From an uncultured Caryophanales bacterium (GTDB lineage Bacteria; Bacillota_I; Bacilli_A; RF39; UBA660), in NCBI GenBank assembly GCA_946611235.1, contig CAMODE010000042.1:1-34151 (forward strand): 34,151 nt of DNA, written 5' to 3'. This document shows, one piece after another, positions 289-31,692 of this stretch; position 1 is the stretch's first letter; each line of letters begins with the position of its first letter. Below the pieces are notes generated by a model. The model saw only the letters and a list, made by a program, of their open reading frames with translations, searched no databases and was not told the origin of the DNA. The translations under genes were made by a program, and so were the position numbers.

Positions 289-2049
289 ATGTTTAGAGAG
301 ATAACCGCTATTAGTAAGAATTATGCTATATGTAAAGTAGATAGTGTTATTAATGATGATTTACTTAATTTGAATGTTGTCTTCGAAGAAGATAATAAGA
401 AGATATTAGGTGAAATTGAAGAAATTTCTAATAATGAAGTTAAGATTAATTTCTTAGGGGAATTTCATGATGGTAGATATTATGATGGTATTATTAGGAA
501 ACCTAGTACTAAAGCTAGAATTAGAATTATTAATAATGAAGAACTAGCAGAACTTACTAATTATAATGATCCTGCATCAATGATACTTGGTCTTTCTCCT
601 TTATATAATAATAGTCCTATTAAAGTTAATATTAATGATATGTGGAGTAATCATACTGCTATTTTTGGTAATACTGGTAGTGGTAAAACTTATGGTGTTG
701 CTAGAATAGTACAAAATTTATTTAGTATGCAAAATTTTATTCCTTTTAATAGTGTTCTTTTTATCTTTAATAATACAGATGAATATGATAATGCTTTTAG
801 AAGTATTAGTAATTTTAATTATAATTTTAATTATAAGCTATATACGAGTAATATGGATAATAAAGATAATTTATTAAGATTACCTTTATGGCTTTTATCA
901 GTAGATGATTATGCTAATATATTAGATGCTACGGAATATTCACAGATAATGATTATTGAGAAAATGCTTAGTTATGTTTCATTATTTGCAAGAAATGATG
1001 ATGAGTCTAATAGATATAAGAATCATTTGATAGCTAGTGCTATTGTATCTGTAATGTATTCTAATCAAGTATCTGCAAGAATTAGGGATCAAATATTTTC
1101 TATTCTTACTACTTGTCATACGAAAGAACTTAATCTTGATGTTGAAGTAGAAGGGGTAGGATATACGAGAGAATTTAGAAAATGTTTTGATATTGATAGT
1201 ACTGGTCAATTTGTTGAAAGAATATTGATAACAGATTATATTAAGAAGTTTATTCTTGAAGATGTTCATTGGAATGAAGAATATGTTCCTACTTATTTTA
1301 CAATAGATGATTTGGAAGTTGCTCTTAACTTTACTTTAATTAGTGAGGGACTACTTCTTAATGAGAAATCTTATAGTGAAGCTACGGCTTTAAAAGTTAA
1401 ACTTCATACTATTGCTAATAGTTCTCTTAGAAAGTTCTTTGAAGTAGAACAGTTTATGTCTATTAATGAATATATATCTAGTTTAATACTAGTTGGTACT
1501 AATAAAAGAGCACAAATTATTAACTTTGTACTTGAAGGTATTGATGATAGATTTTGTAAGGCTTTAGTTAAAGTTTATAGTAGACTTTTATTTATGTTTA
1601 TGAAATCTCTTCCTAATAGGGGTTCTATGCCTATTCATATTATGCTTGAAGAAGCTCATAGATATGTTCAAAAAGATAATGATGTTAATATTTTAGGATA
1701 TAATATATTTGAAAGAATTGCTAAAGAAGGTAGAAAATTTGGAGTAGTTCTTGATCTTATTACTCAAAGACCTACGGAACTATCAGAGAATGTTATATCA
1801 CAGTGTAGTAATTTTATTATATTTAAGATTAATCATCCTAGTGACTTAGAGTATATTGAGAAGATGGTTCCAAATGTTAGTAATGATGTTATTGAAAAAC
1901 AGAAATCACTTCAATCTGGTACATGCGTAGCTTTTGGTAAGATGATGAAGATACCAATGATTGTTAAAATGCAATTACCTAATCCTGCTCCGACTAGTTC
2001 TAATGCTCAAATATTTGATAAATGGATGATACAATGGAAAAATAATTAA
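289..2049 (+). CDS. HerA-type (DUF87) hexameric ATPase/translocase
   Basis: The 586-residue protein has the HerA/FtsK-superfamily layout. A beta-rich N-terminal domain (about 1-100, HAS-barrel-like) precedes a P-loop GNTGSGKT at residues 127-134. Walker B is MLEEAH at 452-457, followed by the conserved ITQRP stretch and the 'SQCSNFIIFKINHPSDLEYI' segment typical of DUF87 proteins. Family knowledge: HerA proteins are hexameric DNA translocases that work with a nuclease in end resection or with an effector such as SIR2 in antiphage defence. No NurA nuclease or SIR2 domain is visible in the window; the upstream partial gene is the only candidate partner. The gene has its own promoter and terminator and points toward oriC, the lagging direction for the left arm, unlike its leftward neighbours. 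Family assignment is firm; role is inferred. Confidence 0.85.
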   Translation: MFREITAISKNYAICKVDSVINDDLLNLNVVFEEDNKKILGEIEEISNNEVKINFLGEFHDGRYYDGIIRKPSTKARIRIINNEELAELTNYNDPASMILGLSPLYNNSPIKVNINDMWSNHTAIFGNTGSGKTYGVARIVQNLFSMQNFIPFNSVLFIFNNTDEYDNAFRSISNFNYNFNYKLYTSNMDNKDNLLRLPLWLLSVDDYANILDATEYSQIMIIEKMLSYVSLFARNDDESNRYKNHLIASAIVSVMYSNQVSARIRDQIFSILTTCHTKELNLDVEVEGVGYTREFRKCFDIDSTGQFVERILITDYIKKFILEDVHWNEEYVPTYFTIDDLEVALNFTLISEGLLLNEKSYSEATALKVKLHTIANSSLRKFFEVEQFMSINEYISSLILVGTNKRAQIINFVLEGIDDRFCKALVKVYSRLLFMFMKSLPNRGSMPIHIMLEEAHRYVQKDNDVNILGYNIFERIAKEGRKFGVVLDLITQRPTELSENVISQCSNFIIFKINHPSDLEYIEKMVPNVSNDVIEKQKSLQSGTCVAFGKMMKIPMIVKMQLPNPAPTSSNAQIFDKWMIQWKNN

Positions 2050-2052
2050 TAC

Positions 2053-2081
2053 AAAATGTAACCTATTTGGTTACATTTTTT
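2053..2081 (+). terminator. Intrinsic terminator of the herA-like gene
   Basis: An 11-bp perfect stem AAAATGTAACC (2053-2063) pairs with GGTTACATTTT (2069-2079), with a 5-nt loop and a T tract. It begins four bases past the stop codon. Confidence 0.9.
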
Positions 2082-2090
2082 GTTTTAGAT

Positions 2091-2135
2091 AAACGCTTCG
2101 CTTCTCGAAATACTTCGTATTTCTTACATACCTTT
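2091..2135. repeat. Degenerate member of the dispersed hairpin repeat
   Basis: AACGCTTCGCTTC is followed by the hairpin GAAATAC-ttcg-GTATTTC. The AACCGCTTCGCTA-plus-hairpin plan resembles copies near 4702, 25629, 26367 and 31657, but the hairpin arms differ. It lies between the convergent herA-like gene and the leftward 174-residue gene. Confidence 0.35.
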
Positions 2136-2172
2136 ATTTAGAAGTGTCTTGTATTTAATGATTATTCTGGAT

Positions 2173-2203
2173 AAAAGAAAAATAGAAATCAATTAAGATT
2201 TCT
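2173..2203 (-). terminator. Intrinsic terminator of the leftward cassette
   Basis: On the minus strand AGAAATC pairs with GATTTCT (arms 2184-2190 and 2197-2203) around the stop codon of the 174-residue gene. The T-rich tract ATTTTTCTTTT follows. Confidence 0.65.
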
Positions 2204-2717
2204 GTCTTATTAAATTACCTGATTTTCTTACTAAACCTTTTGGTTGATGAACTGGTTGTTCTGATTCATTAGGTTTATTAACTTTTACTTTTCTTAAAAA
2301 ACAAATAATAACAGTAGTATTTTTAAAAGTTACATTTATACCTAGATCATTAAATTTTCTATTTATTAATTCATTATCATAATAAACTGAATCTTCAGAT
2401 TCTTTAAAATTATTTTTTTTAGAAAAATTAATAATTATGTCTACTCTTTCATTATTCATACAACAAACAAGATTTTTTACATTGTCTAAATTTATACAGT
2501 TATCAATTTTTTTTCCACTAAGTTCTATGCTGTATACAACATCAAATTCTTTTGCTGAATTAATTGCTTCTTTGATAAGTTCAATATATGCTTCTGCAAA
2601 TTTTTCATTTACTTCTTGTTTTTTTTGTTCTTCTGCTTGTTTTGCTTTTAATAATTCTTCTTTTTTATGATCAAATACTCTCTGTAGTTCATTATATATA
2701 TCAATTCTATTTTCCAT
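2193..2717 (-). CDS. Unknown protein, 174 aa, coiled-coil paralogue A
   Basis: I do not recognise the family. The N-terminal ~40 residues are a charged heptad-like helix rich in E, K and Q. A segment KFAEAYIELIKEAI follows, then an alpha/beta region with DELIN- and GINV-like blocks. The proteins at 3461-4003 and 4037-4582 show the same plan: charged helix, K-(F/Y)-A-x-A-Y, then a YDEL-x-IND...GIDV block. I therefore read all three as diverged paralogues, this one being the most divergent, with a basic C-terminus instead of the TRKR ending. There is no signal peptide or membrane segment, so it is probably cytosolic. The start is supported by GGGGGTGA just upstream and by its own strong promoter at 2744-2772. 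Any link to the origin is positional only. Confidence 0.75.
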   Translation of the reverse strand: MENRIDIYNELQRVFDHKKEELLKAKQAEEQKKQEVNEKFAEAYIELIKEAINSAKEFDVVYSIELSGKKIDNCINLDNVKNLVCCMNNERVDIIINFSKKNNFKESEDSVYYDNELINRKFNDLGINVTFKNTTVIICFLRKVKVNKPNESEQPVHQPKGLVRKSGNLIRQKS

Positions 2718-2743
2718 TTAATTCACCCCCTGAATTGGTTATT

Positions 2744-2772
2744 ACTATATCATAAAAATGGTTGTATGTCAA
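2744..2772 (-). promoter_or_regulatory. Promoter of the 174-aa gene
   Basis: On the minus strand a consensus -35 TTGACA (2767-2772) lies 17 bp from an extended -10, TGA-TATAGT (TATAGT at 2744-2749). The ATG is at 2717. It is one of the best promoter matches in the window. Confidence 0.75.
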
Positions 2773-2781
2773 GTTGTTATT

Positions 2782-2824
2782 TTCATTCCACTAAATAAAT
2801 ATGTTCATTGCACTAAATAAAATG
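2782..2824 (-). repeat. Two tandem 22-nt direct repeats upstream of a -35 box
   Basis: TTCATT(C/G)CACTAAATAAA occurs twice in tandem on the + strand (2782-2803 and 2804-2824). It lies just beyond the TTGACA of the 174-aa gene promoter. A period of 22 nt is close to two helical turns, so this is a candidate activator or repressor site. Confidence 0.45.
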
Positions 2825-2889
2825 TATTATTGTAATAGAAGTAGTGCTGCTAATTTACGCAGTTAATAAGATATCTAAACAGTTAAATA

Positions 2890-2918
2890 AAAAATGTAAT
2901 CTATTTTATTACATTTTT
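2890..2918 (-). terminator. Terminator of the 147-aa gene (symmetric hairpin)
   Basis: An 11-bp perfect stem AAAAATGTAAT (2890-2900) pairs with ATTACATTTTT (2908-2918) around a 7-nt loop. On the minus strand it overlaps the stop codon of the 147-aa gene and is followed by T-rich sequence. T tracts on both sides mean it could stop transcription either way. Confidence 0.75.
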
Positions 2919-3352
2919 CTTCTTTTACCTTCTGAATTTTCTTCAGTAGAATTTAAGGATATTACTGTATATGAATCGATTGGATTATAATCATCTTTAT
3001 ATTTTACTATATTAAAACAATCCAAATATTGACATAATTCCATTTCAGATAAAAGCTTTGAGGAATTATCTCTTAAGTATAATATAAAATATGTTCCTTG
3101 ATAACCTATTGCTCTGGCAAAAAGATCTTTATTTACTAATACTAATTTTTTTCCAATTATATCTTTATCTTCTTTGCATCCTAACATTTTTTTTAATAAT
3201 GTTAAATCTTTTTTATATAAAGGAACTTTGCACATTAATAGTTTTCGATATTTAATTGAAGCATGCTTTGCTTTATCTATTAAACTTTTACTCTCTTCTA
3301 TATTCTCAATAGTGCACTCTACAATTTCTAAGTATTCTCCATTATCTTTCAT
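2909..3352 (-). CDS. Unknown protein, 147 aa
   Basis: Not recognised, and not an obvious paralogue of the coiled-coil proteins on either side. It starts with an acidic stretch, then has a helical, lysine-rich region (SLIDKAKHASIKYRKLL). The second half contains hydrophobic beta-strand-like segments such as YFILYLRD, and the tail is charged (EGKRRKM). There is no signal peptide or transmembrane helix. An AAAGGAGA Shine-Dalgarno a few bases upstream supports the start. It is co-oriented with the 180- and 181-aa genes and may end their transcription unit, since the first strong leftward terminator lies at its stop codon. Confidence 0.65.
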   Translation of the reverse strand: MKDNGEYLEIVECTIENIEESKSLIDKAKHASIKYRKLLMCKVPLYKKDLTLLKKMLGCKEDKDIIGKKLVLVNKDLFARAIGYQGTYFILYLRDNSSKLLSEMELCQYLDCFNIVKYKDDYNPIDSYTVISLNSTEENSEGKRRKM

Positions 3353-3387
3353 TTTCTTCTCCTTTTATTAATATATACCATATTTTT

Positions 3388-3441
3388 TTATCTTACTTTT
3401 GCTACTGATTCTAATCTTTCTTTTATTTTTTCTTCTTTCAT
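3388..3441 (-). CDS. Possible 17-residue charged peptide
   Basis: A 17-codon frame encodes MKEEKIKERLESVAKVR, preceded by TAGGAGAA at a good distance. It sits in the gap between the 180-aa and 147-aa genes, in the same direction. The Shine-Dalgarno is the only positive evidence. It may be a true short peptide, a relic of a longer gene, or chance. Confidence 0.3.
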   Translation of the reverse strand: MKEEKIKERLESVAKVR

Positions 3442-3460
3442 ACTATGTTCTCCTATTAAA

Positions 3461-4003
3461 TCATATAGTTCTCTTTCTAGTATATAGATGGCACCCAGAT
3501 AAAGCAGTCTCACTATTTTTCTCTAGCTTTGATTTATCTTTATAATACAAAATATTTATAATATTCTGTAGATGTTTATTTCTTGATTGTACATCTATTC
3601 CATATTCATGTAACAAATCATTTATCCTTAATTCATCATATAATAATAAGTCTTCATTACTATTGAATATGATATCTTCTTTTTTATCAAATTTTAGTAC
3701 TATTATCATACAGTCTTTATATATTTCATAATATGATGAATTTTTATCTCCTGATATATTATAATTTCCAAATATATTATTTTCATCCCTAATAGTTATT
3801 TTTCCCTTTTTATTATGGAAATTTTGATTTTCTAAAAAATTTAAAACAAAATTTAGATATGCATCTGCATATTTTTTTATTACTTCTTCTTGATGTATTA
3901 AAATTGCATTAATTTTACTATCAAATAAAGTAATTAAATTTTTATGAAGTTTAATTTTTAATTTTCCTAATTCTCTTAATTTCATATATTCTTCTTGATT
4001 CAT
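3461..4003 (-). CDS. Unknown protein, 180 aa, coiled-coil paralogue B
   Basis: Family not recognised. The N-terminal ~45 residues form a lysine-rich helix. KYADAYLNFVLNFL follows, then a conserved middle with NNIFGNYNIS, then YDELRINDLLHEYGIDV, and the protein ends in YTRKRTI. The neighbour at 4037-4582 has matching blocks in the same order (NNVFGNYNIS, YDELMINDILYFYGIDV, HTRKRDE), so the two are clear tandem paralogues. The protein at 2193-2717 is a more distant one. There is no membrane segment. AAGGAG lies just upstream of the ATG. The 33-nt gap to the upstream gene, without a clear promoter, suggests co-transcription. Confidence 0.75.
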   Translation of the reverse strand: MNQEEYMKLRELGKLKIKLHKNLITLFDSKINAILIHQEEVIKKYADAYLNFVLNFLENQNFHNKKGKITIRDENNIFGNYNISGDKNSSYYEIYKDCMIIVLKFDKKEDIIFNSNEDLLLYDELRINDLLHEYGIDVQSRNKHLQNIINILYYKDKSKLEKNSETALSGCHLYTRKRTI

Positions 4004-4036
4004 ATATTTATTACTCCTTTAATATTTAATAAATTA

Positions 4037-4582
4037 CTATTCATCTCTTTTTCTTGTATGTATTCTTCCTGCTCCATCAAACCATGTTTCAGTATTTTTT
4101 TGTAGGTACTTTTTATCTTTATAAAAAGTAATATAGATAACATTTTTATCAATTGTATTTTTTAATTTTACATCTATTCCATAAAAATATAATATATCAT
4201 TTATCATTAATTCATCATACAAATCTTTATCTTCATTGACATTAAAATTTATTTGCTCTTTAGTATCAAATCTTAGGGCTATATATAGCATACTAAAATC
4301 TCTTGCAAATCTGTATGTTGATGGTTTTTCGTTGTTACTAATATTATAATTTCCAAATACATTATTATCTACTCTTGAGGTAATCGAACCACTATAAGAA
4401 AGATAAGTTGGATTAGATAATACTTCTTCAACTATTTTATAATATGCTTTTGCATACTTTATAGCTATTTCTTTCTTTTTAGCTAATAATTCTTTTTTTG
4501 AAAGTTCATTTGCCTTTTGTTCTTCACTTAATTTATTTACTTTATAAGTAAATATGCTGTCTAATTTGTCTACTTCATTCAT
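4037..4582 (-). CDS. Unknown protein, 181 aa, coiled-coil paralogue C
   Basis: This is the first gene of the leftward cassette and the closest to oriC on its left side. Residues ~1-45 are a charged helix with coiled-coil character. KYAKAYYKIVEEVL (about 42-55) follows, NNVFGNYNIS is at 73-82, YDELMINDILYFYGIDV at ~122-138, and the C-terminus is HTRKRDE. The C-terminal (H/Y)TRKR motif is shared with the 180-aa paralogue. Function is unknown and no catalytic motif is evident. GAGGAG precedes the ATG, and a promoter lies at 4609-4637. Leftward transcription is co-directional with the left replication fork. Confidence 0.75.
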   Translation of the reverse strand: MNEVDKLDSIFTYKVNKLSEEQKANELSKKELLAKKKEIAIKYAKAYYKIVEEVLSNPTYLSYSGSITSRVDNNVFGNYNISNNEKPSTYRFARDFSMLYIALRFDTKEQINFNVNEDKDLYDELMINDILYFYGIDVKLKNTIDKNVIYITFYKDKKYLQKNTETWFDGAGRIHTRKRDE

Positions 4583-4608
4583 AAAAATTTTCTCCTCTTT
4601 GATTATTT

Positions 4609-4637
4609 ATTATATATTATATAATGTAATAATGCAA
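4609..4637 (-). promoter_or_regulatory. Promoter of the leftward cassette
   Basis: On the minus strand TTGCAT (4632-4637) is separated by exactly 17 bp from TATAAT (4609-4614). The first ATG is at 4582 and its GAGGAG lies between. Confidence 0.6.
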
Positions 4638-4701
4638 TATAATAATTTTATATATCTAGAGTTTTATATAATTAATAGATTATTCTTGTAGAAGTGTTCC
4701 G

Positions 4702-4739
4702 CGGATTAACAACAGTTAATCCGTTAGCGAAGCGGTTAT
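4702..4739. repeat. Dispersed hairpin repeat, copy next to oriC
   Basis: CGGATTAAC (4702-4710) and GTTAATCCG (4715-4723) form a perfect 9-bp hairpin with an AACA loop, followed by TTAGCGAAGCGGTTA. The same hairpin-plus-AGCGAAGCGGTTA plan recurs at 31657-31692. In reverse orientation it recurs in diverged form at 25629 and 26367. It separates the leftward cassette from the DnaA boxes. Confidence 0.6.
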
Positions 4740-4761
4740 AAACATAATAAACCCACAAATA

Positions 4762-4943
4762 TGTGGATAAGTATACACTTTAATTGCTTATAAACAAAGG
4801 ATATATACAATTATCAACATTATCAACAGGTCTGTGGAAAAGTAAATTTACACATGTTTATAAAGAAAAATGTCGAAATTTGTTGAAAAGTCTGTTAAAG
4901 GCATATTTTATATGATATTATATTGTTGATAAGATGTTTATAA
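4762..4943. other. oriC: oriC, DnaA-box cluster upstream of dnaA
   Basis: DnaA-box-like 9-mers are clustered upstream of dnaA. A perfect TGTGGATAA is at 4762-4770. TTATAAACA is at 4788, TTATCAACA at 4811 and again at 4820 (back to back), TGTGGAAAA at 4833, TGTTTATAA at 4855, TGTTGAAAA at 4881, TGTTGATAA at 4924 and TGTTTATAA at 4935. Most are one- or two-base variants of TTATCCACA. Together with a second cluster after dnaA this is the bipartite origin layout known from Bacillus. Confidence 0.85.
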
Positions 4944-25200: not shown

Positions 25201-25601
25201 AGATTAAGATTGAGATTCATAAGATGATTAATGATATTAATAGTGAAGAGGATATTATTAATCTTAAGAATGTACTTGAAGATAGATTTGGTAGAGTTAC
25301 TGATGAGATGATTATTTATATGCATGAGGAATGGTTTGAGAAACAGGCTAAGATACTTGGTGTTAAGGAATCTAAACAGTCTAAGAACTTTATAGAAGTA
25401 GTACTTCCGATACTTACTTCATCTAAAATAGATGGAGAAAAGTTATTCTTTGATGCTTATGATATTAATAAGAACTTTAAGTTTTCTTATAAAGATAAAA
25501 AGATTCATATTATTTTAGATACTACTAAAAATGAGAAACATTTTATTTATTATTTAAATGAATTATTTGATAAGATTATTAAAGAAATAGAGAAGAATTA
25601 G
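22290..25601 (+). CDS. mfd: Transcription-repair coupling factor Mfd
   Basis: The 1103-residue protein has the full Mfd architecture: a UvrB-homology N-terminal module, the RNA-polymerase-interaction domain (around VKGDYIVHIDHGIGIYGEL), then a RecG-like translocase. Walker A GDVGYGKT is at 582-589, the DEEQ box at 683-686, and LSATPIPRTLQMSM follows. The helicase motif VI region QIRGRIGRSDRIGYAY and the C-terminal inhibitory domain complete it. It removes stalled RNA polymerase at lesions and recruits UvrA. ATG 22290 follows AAAGGAG; TTG 22272 is rejected. It ends in a terminator copied three more times downstream. Confidence 0.97.
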   Translation: MAFFDGLFDINSKNDYSITGLNKELNGIFIYDYFCKYKRNVLVFCNSLYEANDIYNRLSCYTDRVLLFPMDDFIASEATSISPEFMIERLSTLNKLCDDDKYIVVTNMTGILRYLPSKKLYKSKFISLSKNDSIDRDKFINDLYELGYINAPLVSKSGEMAIRGYVIDIFPISEDSPVRIEFWGDDIDSIKYFDLETQLSNEEINSINIYPFTEFLIGKKIDDDVIRKQKYLLNYSSDVDGLWGYLDDPVMFYYDYNQITTSYSLLRETILGYDAEVNDSIKTNYMYDIDDIKIKDVIYMMDIDNLVDKKIKSYSYLSFNIDNYAGNFEKIKSDLDKYLLKGKTIILCIDKKQVVKRIVSYLDINDDVILTNENEIIKGKINIINKYITSGFMYEDYVVISVNDLFGKIEEKKKSKNKFRVGTKISNIDNLVKGDYIVHIDHGIGIYGELCSLTKNGLKKDYIKLIYADGDVLYLPVEKIDKISKFSASDGALVRLDSLSSDNWEKKKARVRKKLESIAGDLMKLSVEREMAKGYAFSVDDENQILFESKFQYEPTSDQIRATEIIKKAMESDKPMDMLLCGDVGYGKTEVAFRAIFKAVNDGKQVAYLCPTTILSNQQYNSALDRFSDFPVNIALLNRFTSVKKQNEIYRKLKEGKIDILFGTHKLLNDKVDFKDLGLLIIDEEQRFGVVHKEKIKRYKNNIDVLTLSATPIPRTLQMSMSGVRGLALIETPPEKRRPIQTYVIPENKNIIKDAIYKELSRNGQVFMLCNNIDKLDSRISFINEIVPEAKVRYAHGRMSKDDIEDVMSDFINHEFDILLCTTIIETGIDIPNVNTLIILDADRFGLSQLYQIRGRIGRSDRIGYAYLMYDNRKELNDLAVKRLNTIKEFTELGSGFKIAMRDLSIRGAGDILGSEQSGFIDSIGIDLYLKMLKEEVDKLKGIKVEEEDTNIKPLIEVETHITNEYAPDDEIKIEIHKMINDINSEEDIINLKNVLEDRFGRVTDEMIIYMHEEWFEKQAKILGVKESKQSKNFIEVVLPILTSSKIDGEKLFFDAYDINKNFKFSYKDKKIHIILDTTKNEKHFIYYLNELFDKIIKEIEKN

Positions 25602-25628
25602 AGATAATATTTATCTTTAATTTTTTTT
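25602..25628 (+). terminator. Terminator module, copy 1 (after mfd)
   Basis: AGATAA-TAT-TTATCT followed by TTAA and T8. The same module follows each of the next three genes. It starts at the mfd stop codon. Confidence 0.65.
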
Positions 25629-25726
25629 AACCGCTATCGCTAACTCATTAACTATCGTTAATTCGCAGAAAGTCTTTTAGTGGAAGATTCCATTATATAG
25701 AGTTGATACTGGATAAATTGATTTTA

Positions 25727-25754
25727 TTGACTTATACTTTAAATAGTGTATAAT
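25727..25754 (+). promoter_or_regulatory. Promoter of the first paralogue
   Basis: TTGACT (25727-25732), a 16-bp spacer and TATAAT (25749-25754). The same arrangement is present at the second paralogue. Confidence 0.7.
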
Positions 25755-25786
25755 AATTTTATGGAGGGCTTTAAATTATACTAAAT

Positions 25787-26329
25787 ATGGAAGAAAATGT
25801 TTATTTATTTGTAGATAGTAGAGATATAAAAGAGGTTGATTTTCATCTTGTAGCATCAAAGGGAAAATATAATAGTTTTGTCAAAAGAGTTTTTCCTTCT
25901 TTGCAACACGATATAAAATATGAATATAAAGATATTGAACAGTATTTTATTGTTAATAGAGTTCCTGTTGATTTTAGAAAAATGGTTGTTATTTTACGTA
26001 GACCATTTACTTCAAATGTTGAGGCTGAAGAGTTATTTACTGGAATGCCTTTTAAAATTACTGGGTGTAATAGTTTTTTAAATTCTAAAATTAAAAAGAG
26101 CATTTTTGGTATTACTTGTTCTAATGATGTTGATTTTCATTATCATAAAATTGTATTTGATACTAGGGCAGTTTTTTTAGATATTGATGATGTCAAAAAT
26201 TTTTATTTATCATTATTAGATAACTATCTATTTGAAGAGTATATTTTTTCTTTGAATTGTTTAATAGGATATGAATATACAATTGATAAAGAAAAAGCAA
26301 AAGCAAAAGTTAAGAAACTTGAATCATAA
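25787..26329 (+). CDS. Unknown protein, 180 aa, first of a tandem pair
   Basis: Family not recognised. It starts with a hydrophobic strand (VYLFVD). The central core VPVDFRKMVVILRRPFTS with the following EAEELFTGMPF (about residues 59-89) is nearly the same in the downstream 170-aa paralogue. The rest differs strongly apart from a shared FYLSLL(D/E)N block. It contains no membrane segment or catalytic signature I can name. The Shine-Dalgarno GGAGGG (about 25762) lies roughly 20 nt from ATG 25787. A 7-codon frame starting at 25760 ends just before it, so re-initiation or a non-ATG start is possible. It has its own promoter and terminator. Confidence 0.75.
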   Translation: MEENVYLFVDSRDIKEVDFHLVASKGKYNSFVKRVFPSLQHDIKYEYKDIEQYFIVNRVPVDFRKMVVILRRPFTSNVEAEELFTGMPFKITGCNSFLNSKIKKSIFGITCSNDVDFHYHKIVFDTRAVFLDIDDVKNFYLSLLDNYLFEEYIFSLNCLIGYEYTIDKEKAKAKVKKLES

Positions 26330-26333
26330 TTAT

Positions 26334-26361
26334 GGATAATATTTATCTTTAATTTTTTTTT
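26334..26361 (+). terminator. Terminator module, copy 2
   Basis: GGATAA-TAT-TTATCT, then TTAA and T9, just past the stop of the 180-aa gene. Confidence 0.65.
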
Positions 26362-26463
26362 AGGTGACCGCTAGTGCTAACTCATTAACTATCGTTAATT
26401 CGCAGAAAGTCTTTTAGTGGAAGATTCCATTATATAGAGTTGATACTGGATAAATTAATTTTG

Positions 26464-26491
26464 TTGACTTATATTTTGAATAGTGTATAAT
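26464..26491 (+). promoter_or_regulatory. Promoter of the second paralogue
   Basis: TTGACT (26464-26469), 16 bp, TATAAT (26486-26491), followed by GGAGG and ATG 26515. Confidence 0.7.
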
Positions 26492-26514
26492 AATTTTATG
26501 GAGGTTTAGGAATA

Positions 26515-27027
26515 ATGGTAAAGAGGGCAAAAAATATATATTTATTAATGGATAGAAGTGATGTAAAAGAATTAAAGTCTCATCCAATTGATGAGAATAT
26601 AAAGGGGTTAATGAGGTTTCTTACAATACCAGAATATGACTATTTAGATACTGATAAATATTTTGAAAAAAATGGTATTCCAATAGAATTTAGAAAAATT
26701 GTAGTCATTTTACATAGACCGTTTACCTCAAATAAAGAAGCTGAAGAACTTTTTACTGGAATACCTTTTGATGTTTCTGGTTATACTAGATTTGTAAAAG
26801 ATAGAAGTAAGCAGATGTTTAGTGGTAGAACATATGGTAGTAGAGGTATTATGTTTACAACGAAGGCTAATCTTGTTGATTTTGATAGTATTAGAATATT
26901 TTACTTATCTTTATTAGAAAATAATCTATTTGAAAAATATATTAATTCTGTGAATAATTTGTTTAAGGCTGATTATTCATTAGATGAAGTAAAAGGAAAT
27001 ATTAAAGTTAAAATATTAGAACTATAA
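26515..27027 (+). CDS. Unknown protein, 170 aa, second of a tandem pair
   Basis: A paralogue of the 180-aa protein just upstream. The shared core is IPIEFRKIVVILHRPFTS with EAEELFTGIPF (about residues 55-85), the N-terminal strand is similar (IYLLMD), and FYLSLLENNLFEKYI is near the end. The region after the core is richer in basic residues (KDRSKQMFSGRTYGSRG). No known domain is recognised. GGAGG precedes the ATG. Protein divergence contrasts with identity of the upstream DNA, so the DNA has been kept or homogenised while the coding parts diverged. Confidence 0.75.
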   Translation: MVKRAKNIYLLMDRSDVKELKSHPIDENIKGLMRFLTIPEYDYLDTDKYFEKNGIPIEFRKIVVILHRPFTSNKEAEELFTGIPFDVSGYTRFVKDRSKQMFSGRTYGSRGIMFTTKANLVDFDSIRIFYLSLLENNLFEKYINSVNNLFKADYSLDEVKGNIKVKILEL

Positions 27028-27029
27028 TT

Positions 27030-27057
27030 AAGGATAATATTTATCTTTAATTTTTTT
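27030..27057 (+). terminator. Terminator module, copy 3
   Basis: AAGGATAA-TAT-TTATCTTT followed by AA and T7 after the 170-aa gene. A degenerate CCCCTTCGCTTG of the dispersed repeat follows. Confidence 0.65.
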
Positions 27058-27138
27058 AACCCCTTCGCTTGTACGTTACAATAAATTATTTTTCTATTGG
27101 CTTGTAGTTAGAGATTATATGTAATAATTAATATTTTA

Positions 27139-27167
27139 TTGATTTCTGCAGTGGAAAAATATATAAT
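27139..27167 (+). promoter_or_regulatory. Promoter of the radical SAM gene
   Basis: TTGATT (27139-27144), a 17-bp spacer and TATAAT (27162-27167), then AAGGGAG before ATG 27193. Confidence 0.65.
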
Positions 27168-27192
27168 ATAACTGTAAGGGAGTGTATTATAA

Positions 27193-28167
27193 ATGGGAAA
27201 ATTTAAAGTAATAGAAAAACTAGAAGCAGCGATTGACTTTAATTTTGAGCATGGAAATAAAGAAAAAATATATAGATATTTAATAAATTTTGATGACAAT
27301 AGAATAATTGAATGCATGACTATAATTCATTTAAATGATAATGAACCAATCGATGTTACTATTGAAATAAGTAATATGTATAATTGTATTGTTGGATGTA
27401 GATTTTGTGCTTCAGGTTCTTTGCCAGAAAGTAGGACTTTTTTAAAGGCAGAAGATTATTTAAAACAAGTTGAAATATGTATTAAAGAAAGTAATATTAA
27501 CCTTAATGATTATCCTAAATTATATGTTGCATTCACTGGTATTGGAGAACCTTCTGTTGTTAAAGAAGAAGTTGCTAAAGGAATAATGCTTATAAAAGAA
27601 AGATATAATAATGTTGAAGTTAATATTGCTACTACTGGATTTGATAATAAATGTTTTGAGTATTGGAATAAACTAAATTTACCTATCAGATATTTTCAAC
27701 TTCCATACTACTCTTGTGAAAAAGATAAGATTAAATATATTATCCAAAATGCACCAAAAGATTATGATTTAATCAATAATATTAAAGAAGCAATAAAATA
27801 TAGAAAGAATCATAATGAGTGTAGAGTAAAAATTAATTATGTTGTTATGGAAGGAATAAATGATAGTGAAAAAGATGTTGAAAAAATGATTGAATATTTA
27901 AAAGAATTTAAGGATGACATTATAATTAAAGTATCATATTTAAATTATACAGAAAAATGTAAAGAAAATAATTTACATTCTCCATCTCAAAAGGAGATGC
28001 ATAAAATATTAAACAGTATTAAACAGGCTGGATATGATTGTTATTTATTTGGAACTGAGAATAACACAGAATTAGGATGTGGTCAATTAGTTCAAAATTA
28101 TATTTGTGATGAAAATTCTAAAAGTATACGTTCTCAGAATTTTATTAGAAAAAAAGTTATGAATTAG
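27193..28167 (+). CDS. RlmN/Cfr-like radical SAM protein, atypical
   Basis: The 324-residue protein has the radical SAM cluster motif CIVGCRFC (C65, C69, C72), a GIGEP SAM-binding motif (AFTGIGEPS), and VKINYVVMEGINDSEKDVEKM, which resembles RlmN VTIEYVMLDHVND. GCGQL near the end contains C296 at the position of the methyl-carrying cysteine C355 of E. coli RlmN. The second catalytic cysteine of RlmN (C118, seven residues before the first cluster cysteine) is replaced by E58. RlmN/Cfr methylate A2503 of 23S rRNA. This protein may instead be a methylase variant with another resolving residue, or a different enzyme. It is short at the N-terminus and lies in an insertion between mfd and spoVT. 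Confidence 0.8.
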   Translation: MGKFKVIEKLEAAIDFNFEHGNKEKIYRYLINFDDNRIIECMTIIHLNDNEPIDVTIEISNMYNCIVGCRFCASGSLPESRTFLKAEDYLKQVEICIKESNINLNDYPKLYVAFTGIGEPSVVKEEVAKGIMLIKERYNNVEVNIATTGFDNKCFEYWNKLNLPIRYFQLPYYSCEKDKIKYIIQNAPKDYDLINNIKEAIKYRKNHNECRVKINYVVMEGINDSEKDVEKMIEYLKEFKDDIIIKVSYLNYTEKCKENNLHSPSQKEMHKILNSIKQAGYDCYLFGTENNTELGCGQLVQNYICDENSKSIRSQNFIRKKVMN

Positions 28168-28194
28168 CAAAATGATTATTAAATAATGAAAATT

Positions 28195-28222
28195 AAGGAT
28201 AATATTTATCTTTAATTTTTTT
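28195..28222 (+). terminator. Terminator module, copy 4
   Basis: AAGGATAA-TAT-TTATCTTT followed by AA and T7, 27 nt past the radical SAM gene. Confidence 0.65.
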
Positions 28223-28288
28223 ATATTATTTGTATAAATATTTAGTTATATGGAAGAATATAAAAGAGAAAGTTAAAGGTGATATTAA

Positions 28289-28819
28289 TTGAAGACTACT
28301 GGTGTTATTAGAAGAATTGATGAACTAGGTAGAATTGTTATTCCTAAAGAGATTAGAAAGAATCTTAGAATTAAGAATGGAGAGAATTTAGAGGTATTTG
28401 TAGAAGGTGAATCTATCGTATTAAAAAAATATTCTCAGTTAGAGAATATTGAGAGTGTATCTGTTGATTATGTAGAAGCTTTTAATCAGATTATTAAACA
28501 TAATATTATTGTTACGGATAGAGATAAAGTAATTGCAGTAGCAGGTCCTTTAAAGAAAAAATATTTAGGTAAAGAGATTAATGAATTTACTGAGAGAAGT
28601 ATTGATAGGAGAGATTCTTTTTCGGAAAAACAAAAGAAGATGTTTAGTGTAATTAAAGATGAAGAAGATAATGGTTATTATACTTTTACATCGATTGTGG
28701 ATAATGGGGATGCTATTGGTAGTGTTATTATTATTAGTACAGATACTCCTATTACGGATGTTGAAGATAAGATGGGTATTATTTTATCTAAATTACTTAG
28801 TAAACAATTCATAGATTAA
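28289..28819 (+). CDS. spoVT: SpoVT-like AbrB-family transcription regulator
   Basis: The 176-residue protein has an N-terminal AbrB swapped-hairpin DNA-binding domain (TGVIRRIDELGRIVIPKEIRKNL, then a NGENLEVFVEGESIVLKKY-like segment). The C-terminal region of about 120 residues fits the GAF-like domain of SpoVT. Its length matches B. subtilis SpoVT (178) rather than AbrB (about 95). In Bacillus spoVT follows mfd directly; here three accessory genes intervene. The start is a TTG codon preceded by AAAGGTGAT. SpoVT controls late sporulation genes in Bacillus; its role here is inferred. Two consecutive hairpin terminators follow. Confidence 0.9.
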   Translation: MKTTGVIRRIDELGRIVIPKEIRKNLRIKNGENLEVFVEGESIVLKKYSQLENIESVSVDYVEAFNQIIKHNIIVTDRDKVIAVAGPLKKKYLGKEINEFTERSIDRRDSFSEKQKKMFSVIKDEEDNGYYTFTSIVDNGDAIGSVIIISTDTPITDVEDKMGIILSKLLSKQFID

Positions 28820-28835
28820 AGTCTATGATTTTTTT
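28810..28835 (+). terminator. First terminator of spoVT
   Basis: CATAGA (28810-28815) pairs with TCTATG (28822-28827) around the stop codon, followed by ATT and a T tract. Confidence 0.6.
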
Positions 28836-28836
28836 G

Positions 28837-28869
28837 TCTATCAACAATACCTGTTGATAGATATATTTT
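28837..28869 (+). terminator. Second terminator of spoVT
   Basis: CTATCAACA (28838-28846) pairs perfectly with TGTTGATAG (28852-28860) around ATACC, followed by ATATATTTTT. It backs up the hairpin just upstream. Confidence 0.75.
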
Positions 28870-28880
28870 TGTAAATATAA

Positions 28881-28889
28881 TGATATAAT
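28881..28889 (+). promoter_or_regulatory. Extended -10 promoter of the hydrolase group
   Basis: TGA-TATAAT (TATAAT at 28884-28889) is a perfect extended -10. A second candidate, TGT-TATACT, lies at 28913-28921. Either could start transcription of the 20-codon ORF and the hydrolase genes. Confidence 0.5.
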
Positions 28890-28945
28890 TTATTCTAATA
28901 ATTAAATAATTATGTTATACTTGTGTTAGATAGGTGGTTATATTT

Positions 28946-29008
28946 ATGGAAGATATTGTGAATAAATTAAAAGAAAAGACTATATCTTATATAGAAAAGA
29001 AGGTGTAA
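28946..29008 (+). CDS. Possible 20-residue leader peptide
   Basis: ATG 28946 opens a 20-codon frame for a charged helical peptide (MEDIVNKLKEKT...YIEKKV), with TAGGTGG about 9 nt upstream. It ends 3 nt before the ATG of the cysteine hydrolase, whose AAGGTG lies inside the peptide's last codons. The close join suggests translational coupling. No attenuator structure is evident. Confidence 0.45.
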   Translation: MEDIVNKLKEKTISYIEKKV

Positions 29009-29011
29009 ATA

Positions 29012-29509
29012 ATGAATAAATTATTGTTAATAATTGATTTGCAAAAGGGATTTATAAATGATAATACCAAAGAAATTCCTAATGCTATAGAAGAATTACT
29101 GAATAAAAATATATTTAATAATGTTGTATTTACTAAATATATAAATGATGAAGATAGTATATTTTATAAGAAATTAAATTATAAAGGATGTATGTCTTTA
29201 GAAGATAGAAATATTGTAATAGATACTAAAAATTATAAAATAATTGAAAAAAGAGGATATACAGCTTTAAATGATAAACTAAAAGATTATATAAAAGATA
29301 ATAATATTGAAGAAATATATTTATGTGGATTAGATACTGATGCTTGTGTATTAAAGACTTCTATTGACTTATTTGAAAATGATTATAATGTTAAAGTAAT
29401 AAAAGATTTATGTATGAGTCATTCTGGGATAGAAATGCATGATAGTATTATTAATATTTTAAATAAAATGATTGGTAAAGATAATGTTATAGATGTTGAG
29501 GAGTTATAG
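29012..29509 (+). CDS. Isochorismatase-family cysteine hydrolase
   Basis: The 165-residue protein carries the catalytic triad of the isochorismatase/nicotinamidase superfamily: D9 in LLIIDLQKGF, K80 in IIEKRGYTAL, and nucleophile C112 in YLCGLDTDACV. Members hydrolyse nicotinamide, isochorismate, ureidoacrylate or similar amides; the substrate cannot be read from sequence. The shortness of the region between D9 and K80 argues against classical PncA. The HAD phosphatase gene starts 2 nt after its stop, so the two are an operon. Confidence 0.88.
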   Translation: MNKLLLIIDLQKGFINDNTKEIPNAIEELLNKNIFNNVVFTKYINDEDSIFYKKLNYKGCMSLEDRNIVIDTKNYKIIEKRGYTALNDKLKDYIKDNNIEEIYLCGLDTDACVLKTSIDLFENDYNVKVIKDLCMSHSGIEMHDSIINILNKMIGKDNVIDVEEL

Positions 29510-29511
29510 AA

Positions 29512-29967
29512 ATGTATTTAAAAGAAATAATAGAAAGCTTTGGAGATAAGAAAATAAAAATATATATTGATATGGATGGGGTAGTAGCAGATTATGATGT
29601 TGGAAAACCAGATAATTTTGAAAAGAAAAGGCCATTATATACTTCGATTGATAAGTTGAAAGAAATATCTTTTATGGATAATGTTAGTTTATATATTTTA
29701 TCTATTACGAGAAAGAATATTGGTATAGAAGAAAAAAATATATGGTTAGATAAATATATGCCTTTTATTGATAAGAATAATAGATTTATTCTTTCTAAAG
29801 AAGAAGTAAGAAAGTCTTCTAGTGAATTGAAAGTAGACTTTTTGAAAAATATTAAAAGAGAAGATGAAGTAATAATACTAATAGATGATGATCCTTTAAT
29901 TTTAAAGAGTGTTATGGATAATGTTAATGATATTGTACTACTAAAAGATACTGTTTTAGTAGATTAA
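29512..29967 (+). CDS. HAD-superfamily phosphatase, 5'-nucleotidase-like
   Basis: The 151-residue protein shows HAD motif I as IYIDMDGVVADYD (nucleophile D20, acid/base D22), a motif II-like SIT in LYILSITRK, and motif IV as LIDDDPLIL (D125-D127). The DMDGVVAD form and small cap resemble 5'(3')-deoxyribonucleotidase/YqfW-type enzymes. The preference for nucleotides is inferred. GAGGAG upstream supports the ATG. It is tightly linked to the isochorismatase-like gene, possibly in nucleotide or cofactor clean-up. Confidence 0.8.
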   Translation: MYLKEIIESFGDKKIKIYIDMDGVVADYDVGKPDNFEKKRPLYTSIDKLKEISFMDNVSLYILSITRKNIGIEEKNIWLDKYMPFIDKNNRFILSKEEVRKSSSELKVDFLKNIKREDEVIILIDDDPLILKSVMDNVNDIVLLKDTVLVD

Positions 29968-30000
29968 TAAAGTATTTGTATTAGAAAGTTGGTGCAATAG

Positions 30001-30765
30001 ATGAATGAATATTTATTAGAACTAAAAAATAAATATGGATATAGTGATCAATTACTAGGATTTTTAAGTCAGTTAATTCCCAATTTAATTAATTATTATG
30101 GTGAAGAATATAGAGATATTATTATTTCTGCAATATCAAATTGTGAAATACATTTTCAAAGTAAAGATGAGGATCCTAAAACATTCTTAAACTCATATTT
30201 TTGTATTAATAAGGAATGGAAAATACCAAGTCTTGGTGGTGCATTTTATCATAATGAGATTATGATTAAAGATGGTCAAGTTGTTGCTAAACCTATTATC
30301 TATTTAAGGAGAATTTATCAAGGTATTTATAAACCTTTTGATTTTAATGATGATAAACAAGTTAATACTTTAATTCATGAAATATGCCATTTAATTAAAG
30401 GATATTGTAAATTGAAAACAGATGGTGAAAAGATAATAGATAGAACAGGTCTTATGAAAGATACTTATTCATATAGTCTAGAAAAGGGTATTATCGAAGA
30501 AAAAAATGAAATGGTAGGGATTGAAGAAGCATTAAATGATGTAGAAACAGAACAAATACAGGAAATAATGACTGGTAGAAAACAAGAGGTATTATCATAT
30601 AGAACTGCTGGAAAATGTGTAATGAGATTATTAGAACATAAGGACATTGCAAAAGTAATTAGAATTTCACAATTTAGTGGTGATGATAGCTGGACTCAAT
30701 ATCTTGGTGAAGAACAAAGCAAATTATTAATAGAAAATTTTGATGTTTTAGTTAATTCAATGTAG
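30001..30765 (+). CDS. HExxH zinc-metallopeptidase-like protein
   Basis: The 254-residue protein has HEICH at 126-130 (TLIHEICHLIKGYCK), a zinc-binding HExxH with catalytic E127. A GIEEALND segment about 45 residues later could supply a glutamate third ligand, as in gluzincins. There is no signal peptide or membrane helix, so it is probably intracellular. I do not recognise the precise family. The Shine-Dalgarno is weak (GTTGGTG). The reading frame continues open after TAG 30763-30765 for 42 more codons, to a TGA that overlaps the next start, so the gene may have been longer. Confidence 0.75.
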   Translation: MNEYLLELKNKYGYSDQLLGFLSQLIPNLINYYGEEYRDIIISAISNCEIHFQSKDEDPKTFLNSYFCINKEWKIPSLGGAFYHNEIMIKDGQVVAKPIIYLRRIYQGIYKPFDFNDDKQVNTLIHEICHLIKGYCKLKTDGEKIIDRTGLMKDTYSYSLEKGIIEEKNEMVGIEEALNDVETEQIQEIMTGRKQEVLSYRTAGKCVMRLLEHKDIAKVIRISQFSGDDSWTQYLGEEQSKLLIENFDVLVNSM

Positions 30766-30894
30766 GTTTCTTTTAGTGAAATTAATACAAAAGAAAAGAG
30801 AGAATTATTGTATAAAAAAAGAGAAATTGCACAAGAAAATATAGATGAATTTGTTGATAATTATTATTCAAGGCAGGAGGCAATAAAGAGATGA
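30766..30894 (+). other. In-frame extension after the metallopeptidase TAG
   Basis: Forty-two sense codons follow the TAG in the same frame and end in TGA 30892-30894, which overlaps the next ATG in an ATGA arrangement. The peptide is highly charged and helical (KEKRELLYKKREIAQENIDEF...). There is no ATG; a TTG at 30808 could start a 28-residue peptide. It may be a C-terminal tail cut off by a point mutation to TAG, a separate short gene, or a read-through product. Confidence 0.4.
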
Positions 30895-31604
30895 AAGTAC
30901 AAGTAATAGGAACGGGTAGTATGTGGACTAAGTGTAATAGTGCTTCATATTTGATAGATAATGATATTATGATCGATTTTCCAAATGGTGCATGTAAATA
31001 TTTATATCGAAATAATATTAATCCAAGTAGTATTGATTATATATTACTTACTCATTTTCATGGTGATCATTATTTTGATATACCATTTTATATTTTAAAT
31101 AAATCTAAAAGTGATAATAAGAATATTAATATTTTTTGTTCTAAAGAGGGAAGAGGTAAAATAAATAAAATTGGTAATTTAGCATTTCCTAATTCTTTTA
31201 AAGATGCCTCTAGAGAAACTAATATTAAGTATGAATTTAATAATAACTTTAAAATTAAAGATTATGAGATAAGTAAATTATTAGTAGATCATGGTAGAAT
31301 GAAGCCTGCTTATGGTTATATTTTTAAAGATAATGATAAATATATAGGATTTACTGGAGATACTTCATTATGTAGTAATGTAGAATATATGGCTAGTAAA
31401 TGTAATTATTTATTTTGTGATTGTATGTTTGTTAAAGGAACTAGTAAACATATGGGAATAGATAATTTAGAATATTTATCTTCTAAATATTCTAGTTGCA
31501 TATTTGTAGTTAGTCATCTAGAAGATGAAACCAGAGAAATATTAAATAAGAAGAATATCAAAAATATTATTGTTCCAGATGATTATTATGTTTTAGAAGT
31601 TTAA
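30891..31604 (+). CDS. Metallo-beta-lactamase-fold hydrolase (RNase Z-like)
   Basis: The 237-residue protein has the MBL motif THFHGDH at 54-60, an upstream aspartate in IMIDFPNGA, a DHGRMKPAYGYIF segment, FTGDTSLC with the bridging aspartate, and VVSHLED near the end. This resembles the RNase Z/YycJ-like single-domain group rather than beta-lactamases. The lack of the exosite arm argues against a true tRNase Z. GCAGGAGG lies 10 nt from the ATG. The substrate is unknown. It overlaps the end of the frame that follows the metallopeptidase. Confidence 0.85.
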   Translation: MKVQVIGTGSMWTKCNSASYLIDNDIMIDFPNGACKYLYRNNINPSSIDYILLTHFHGDHYFDIPFYILNKSKSDNKNINIFCSKEGRGKINKIGNLAFPNSFKDASRETNIKYEFNNNFKIKDYEISKLLVDHGRMKPAYGYIFKDNDKYIGFTGDTSLCSNVEYMASKCNYLFCDCMFVKGTSKHMGIDNLEYLSSKYSSCIFVVSHLEDETREILNKKNIKNIIVPDDYYVLEV

Positions 31605-31656
31605 ATTATTTTGTATTAAACAAAAATAGAAGAATCTTCTTGTAAATGGCTATGGA

Positions 31657-31692
31657 GGATTAACTTGTTAATCCGGGTAGCGAAGCGGTTAA
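31657..31692. repeat. Dispersed hairpin repeat, copy before metG
   Basis: GGATTAAC (31657-31664) and GTTAATCC (31667-31674) form an 8-bp hairpin followed by GGGTAGCGAAGCGGTTAA. This is nearly the same as the copy beside oriC at 4702-4739, 27 kb away. It may fold as a weak terminator for the MBL gene. Confidence 0.6.

Follow-up and report, generated by a model that had tools for sequence, protein, structure and literature searches.

At minimal mobile elements (MMEs) of Neisseria, different genomes carry different whole-gene cassettes beside conserved genes, and each comparison of genomes yields more than 30 potential sites (PMC3898611). Small repeats such as MITEs, Correia elements, the pneumococcal BOX and RUP elements and SPRITE can likewise flank accessory genes (PMC10969869), and group IIC introns insert directly behind intrinsic terminators (PMC4424553). 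The locus described here is compared with these systems. It contains a genus-restricted, dispersed, hairpin-forming repeat of ~85 nt, designated E, whose core is an 81-nt block found in front of two adjacent genes.

The window (the whole stretch of DNA analysed, 34,151 nt) belongs to a draft genome of 1.27 Mb, designated G000, in which it is contig C42. The interval from the end of mfd (position 25601) to the start of a spoVT-like regulator gene (position 28289) holds two small paralogues, designated g1 and g2, as well as a gene for a radical-SAM protein (Table 1). The array has the order T-E-g1-T-E-g2-T-E-rSAM-T, where T is a 25-nt terminator (GATAATATTTATCTTTAATTTTTTT) that occurs four times in the genome, even with three mismatches allowed, once behind mfd and once behind each of the three genes of the array. 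All four copies lie at the mfd locus, and the unit is therefore repeated a third time, around the unrelated radical-SAM gene. The base preceding the terminator is G in T2–T4 (GGATAA); the mfd copy reads AGATAA, and the sister species have this mfd form. No close match to the radical-SAM gene was found in ten congeners, which contain only distant RlmN-like genes. Its product is RlmN/Cfr-like, far below the family cut-offs, and a separate RlmN-like gene is located at position 15621 of contig C1. For g1, there was no family in Pfam, NCBIfam or PADLOC and no match in 10 congeners; its AlphaFold model, with a pLDDT of 38, is too poor to be used.

Table 1. Coordinates of terminators, E copies, promoter-like sites and genes in the window.
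Feature	Position	Strand	Remark
E copy at the dnaA-adjacent variable island (2.8 kb), left border	2089..2171	+	
E copy, right border of the dnaA island	4655..4739	-	inverted
mfd terminator T1	25603..25627	+	native; sister species with an empty site carry the same
E element copy 1	25627..25713	+	R1 97.2 bits; covers most of block 25639-25719
Promoter-like site of g1	25727..25754	+	downstream of E
g1, 180 aa	25787..26329	+	
Terminator copy T2	26335..26359	+	
E element copy 2	26364..26450	+	covers most of block 26376-26456
Promoter-like site of g2	26464..26491	+	
g2, 170 aa	26515..27027	+	g1 paralogue
Terminator copy T3	27033..27057	+	
E element copy 3	27056..27141	+	degenerate; E = 0.027
Radical-SAM gene	27193..28167	+	distantly RlmN/Cfr-like
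Terminator copy T4	28198..28222	+	right edge of the array
E copy at insertion 28874-31651 (2.8 kb), right border	31609..31692	-	

The preliminary description of this DNA had reported an 81-nt block shared by the regions upstream of g1 and g2. The two copies (25639–25719 and 26376–26456) are indeed identical over their entire length, and this identity is not due to chance. The flanking terminator and promoter, described as nearly identical, match at 159 of 168 positions in an alignment extending from the terminator to the RBS (~5% difference), and both copies have the promoter-like sequence TTGACT-16-TATAAT. The same description had called the two proteins strongly different outside a core of ~30 residues, in agreement with an overall identity of 44–45% and a conserved core of this size. 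Codon alignment of the genes gave a nucleotide identity of 64.5%, with pS 0.45, dS 0.70 and dN 0.44; on the same scale, the dS of mfd between the G000 species and its sister species is 0.24–0.33. An upstream difference of 5% next to a coding dS of 0.70 indicates a far younger age for the upstream module than for the divergence of the coding sequences. Since the assemblies are metagenome-assembled genomes, an exact repeat of 81 nt could be misassembled; the other E copies in G000 share at most 46 nt exactly. Constraint may also contribute to the upstream identity, because the 66 nt beyond T4 and upstream of spoVT (28223–28288) are the same in G000 and in G006, a congener with an empty site (66/66 nt), and ~20% of the synonymous sites in mfd differ between these two genomes.

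This arrangement could have arisen by ordinary tandem duplication, in which terminator, E, promoter and gene were copied together and the coding part then diverged fast next to a constrained upstream part. Such a history would fit the facts that g1 and g2 are true paralogues (dN/dS about 0.6), that other E sites, too, show tandem duplications (locus L106 and the island of the window at dnaA) and that conserved intergenic DNA exists, as seen in front of spoVT. E itself, however, is not so constrained and diverges between orthologous sites of different species, and the synonymous divergence of g1 and g2 lies far above the upstream difference. Moreover, the gene in the third unit is unrelated, and duplication alone leaves the last terminator copy beside spoVT unexplained. 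We regard tandem duplication as rather unlikely to account for the locus. The contrast in dS fits a homogenisation of the upstream module, as in the gene-conversion option raised in the preliminary description: the 81-nt identity would then reflect recent copying or conversion of the terminator-E-promoter module beside older, diverged coding sequences.

The genome was searched for further E copies with two covariance models, R1 (built from ten copies) and R2 (built from 69 copies). Matches in G000 were obtained at 46 places, corresponding to about 45 copies when a contig-overlap pair (C30/C48) is counted once, and they lie at sites with variable genes. The block is thus not unique to the two copies at mfd, nor are the coding regions as similar as the DNA in front of them. 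Among the congeners, 43 copies were found in G001, 25 in G006, 13 in G007 and 7, all weak, in G004, whereas no E was found in six other congeners or in the 57 genomes that represent other genera of the family. Hairpin 1 of the element shows many compensatory changes, and 47 two-sided cells were counted for the whole structure, compared with 15 in shuffles. A hairpin followed by a T-tract is located within 14 nt before E in 51 of 68 copies, as opposed to 12% of shuffled segments. A phage origin of E or g1 was considered and rejected: the exact degenerate E pattern is absent from IMG/VR, and no relatives of g1 were found there.

A structured element with compensatory changes in hairpin 1 might act in cis, as a regulatory RNA or operator of the genes downstream, a role that had also been put forward at the outset. 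E is, however, positioned upstream of the promoter-like site, the next ORF points in the same direction in 32 cases and in the opposite direction in 31, and Rfam gave no match in the window region of the block. We consider a function of this kind highly improbable.

Orthologous E sites were compared between genomes (one genome per species), with both flanks treated alike. In the 33 ortholog pairs with at least one joined flank, the 5' flank was joined in every case (33/33) and the 3' flank in four (4/33), and the 3' flank was never joined alone (0/33); counted by locus, 14 of the 18 E loci lacked a joined 3' flank in every comparison. Homology ended at positions spread from about +14 to +140, usually +58 to +117, relative to the start of the element. 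E is therefore a backbone-side border of fixed polarity, conserved on its 5' side and variable on its 3' side. In aligned contigs, the 3' ends of genes were broken in 18 of 100 comparisons without E and in 7 of 11 with E, a modest association in a small sample (p = 0.027 at the level of unique sites). Setting the 14 of 18 E loci against the 18 of 100 E-free gene ends gave p about 1e-6, with slightly different criteria on the two sides. The window shows three gene-content differences of >1 kb from G006 or G007 (2049–4811, 25627–28174 and 28874–31651), and all of them abut E. Short-read misjoining at E is unlikely to explain the breaks in general, because exact matches between copies of one genome are no longer than 46 nt, with the exception of the mfd pairs and C30/C48. 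Large indels without E are present on other contigs, so that E marks many, not all, sites of turnover. Three E-free indels have near-equal lengths of 914, 916 and 927 nt (C50 of G000, 33352–34267 and 39915–40832; C10 of G001, 2479–3407), and they are possibly an insertion sequence.

The contents of individual sites differ between species. At mfd, G001 and G006 have the order mfd-T-spoVT with nothing inserted. G007 carries two different genes at this position, each preceded by an E copy, and a 3' mfd fragment of ~75 nt is repeated together with the terminator between them. The insertion at 28874–31651 is missing in G006 and G007. Taken together, the asymmetry of the flanks, the fact that all three differences in the window abut E and the contents of the mfd site indicate that E borders recurrent gene-exchange sites. 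In the island on the dnaA side of the window, four small minus-strand genes, three of them paralogues, lie between facing E copies (2193–4582); at this position, G001 and G006 hold different relatives and G007 holds none. An inverted motif, TATCAACA..TGTTGATA, is found at 28835–28862 and 3' of several E copies, either immediately past E or at the edges of cargo; it resembles a variant DnaA box.

The preliminary description had also proposed a mobile cassette with fixed ends and variable genes. Its variable genes are borne out beyond E, both genome-wide and between species, whereas an autonomous cassette end is not established: the right border mostly lacks a mark, and the searches yielded no dedicated enzyme. 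If E were such an end, serving as a terminal inverted repeat or att site for a dedicated enzyme that inserts behind terminators, it would fit the three loci at which facing E pairs surround cargo, left of dnaA, on C9 near 10–11.5 kb and at glyA, where the outer ends TTAACCGC...GCGGTTAA bound the islands in inverted orientation. Copies of host terminators or gene 3' ends, from about 25 to >200 nt long, also flank the inserts at mfd, rplQ and glyA, and the targeting of terminators resembles that of group IIC introns. At glyA in G001, two facing-E islands have a copy of the neighbouring terminator between them, and at rplQ in G001 the cargo follows the stop codon and is succeeded by a decayed second rpoA/rplQ end, a terminator and E. 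The mfd, rplQ and glyA cases show that duplicated host gene ends recur with variable length. At L102 (C11 of G001, rpoA-rplQ), the decayed 3'-end copy is a mosaic with 238 nt at 97% identity and smaller pieces, located between two back-to-back E copies. Most sites, by contrast, have a single E, the lengths of the repeats vary, homology does not end at one point, the orientation of the cargo is free and no matching enzyme was found. An enzyme-dependent cassette end appears unlikely to us. Equally doubtful is its fullest form, in which E would be the recognition end of an undescribed system that inserts single accessory genes, often candidate defence genes, behind terminators at dozens of chromosomal sites and copies the host terminator each time.

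Enzyme searches covered the families PF00589, PF00078 and PF01797, and no recombinase tracks E. Xer-like tyrosine recombinases are present in every congener with or without E, and none was seen that is specific to E carriers. A reverse transcriptase (PF00078) was not found in the E-bearing genomes G001 and G007. The Y1 transposase (PF01797) was detected in G000 only and was not found in G001, G006 and G007, drafts that are 73–86% complete. A link to RAYT proteins was also discarded, as the neighbourhoods of the Y1 transposase genes contain no E.

Past E lies variable cargo, of which unknown genes and candidate defence genes make up a large share. Among the scanned ORFs that come first after E, about half have no Pfam family. 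Other scanned cargo includes KilA-N, DUF1016/YhcG nuclease, Fic, AAA_14/DUF4143, DUF3800 and WG-repeat proteins as well as a sigma factor, LemA and NUDIX. A PADLOC scan of ten cargo proteins yielded matches to PDC-S models, which we take to be phage-defence candidates, for seven of them; as the ten were hand-picked, this result offers a lead but does not amount to an enrichment.

The reading we favour, and hold to be moderately probable, is that E is the border of gene-exchange sites at which new cargo takes the place of old through recombination, with the conserved end of the gene, the terminator and E as its anchors. Homologous exchange fits because the breakpoints are spread, the orientation of the cargo is free and no enzyme was found. 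With each such swap, the incoming gene would keep the same terminator-E module, and stacking with another terminator copy would have built the array T-E-g1-T-E-g2-T-E-rSAM-T at mfd. An odd local duplication has thereby led to a genome-wide map of about 45 sites of concentrated gene turnover, all flagged by a single recognisable sequence. Accessory and candidate defence genes become findable by their border repeat instead of by homology, and the entry of single genes into small, streamlined genomes that have no obvious transposase becomes directly testable.

Several known systems share features with E. Like REP sequences and REPINs, it is dispersed, intergenic and palindromic, with conserved hairpins and sometimes inverted pairs; unlike them, it is longer, sits behind terminators and borders gene turnover, and in contrast to REP/RAYT systems a Y1-type transposase was found in just one E-bearing genome. 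MITEs, Correia, BOX, RUP and SPRITE elements are similarly short, non-coding and dispersed in AT-rich intergenic DNA. E differs from them in its border polarity and in usually having one copy per site; no short constant target duplication was seen, the flanking duplications being about 25 to >200 nt long or absent. Integron attC arrays also have a structured repeat beside each gene of a variable array, but the cargo genes of E lie with (32) or against (31) its direction, and copies of the host terminator are found between genes at E sites; no integrase tied to E was seen among the tyrosine recombinases. Group IIC introns share with E the position immediately after terminators (51/68 copies), but there is no intron RNA match in the window region and no reverse transcriptase in two E-bearing genomes. 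By analogy, E sites seem most like the MMEs of Neisseria: different whole genes lie between the same neighbours in different species, at mfd-spoVT, to the left of dnaA, at glyA, at rplQ and at other sites. Neisseria MMEs are incorporated by homologous recombination alone, through natural transformation; at E sites, exchange is proposed from the comparison of sequences. Unlike the MMEs, E sites belong to an uncultured Bacilli-like genus and are furnished with a dedicated, structured border repeat of fixed polarity.
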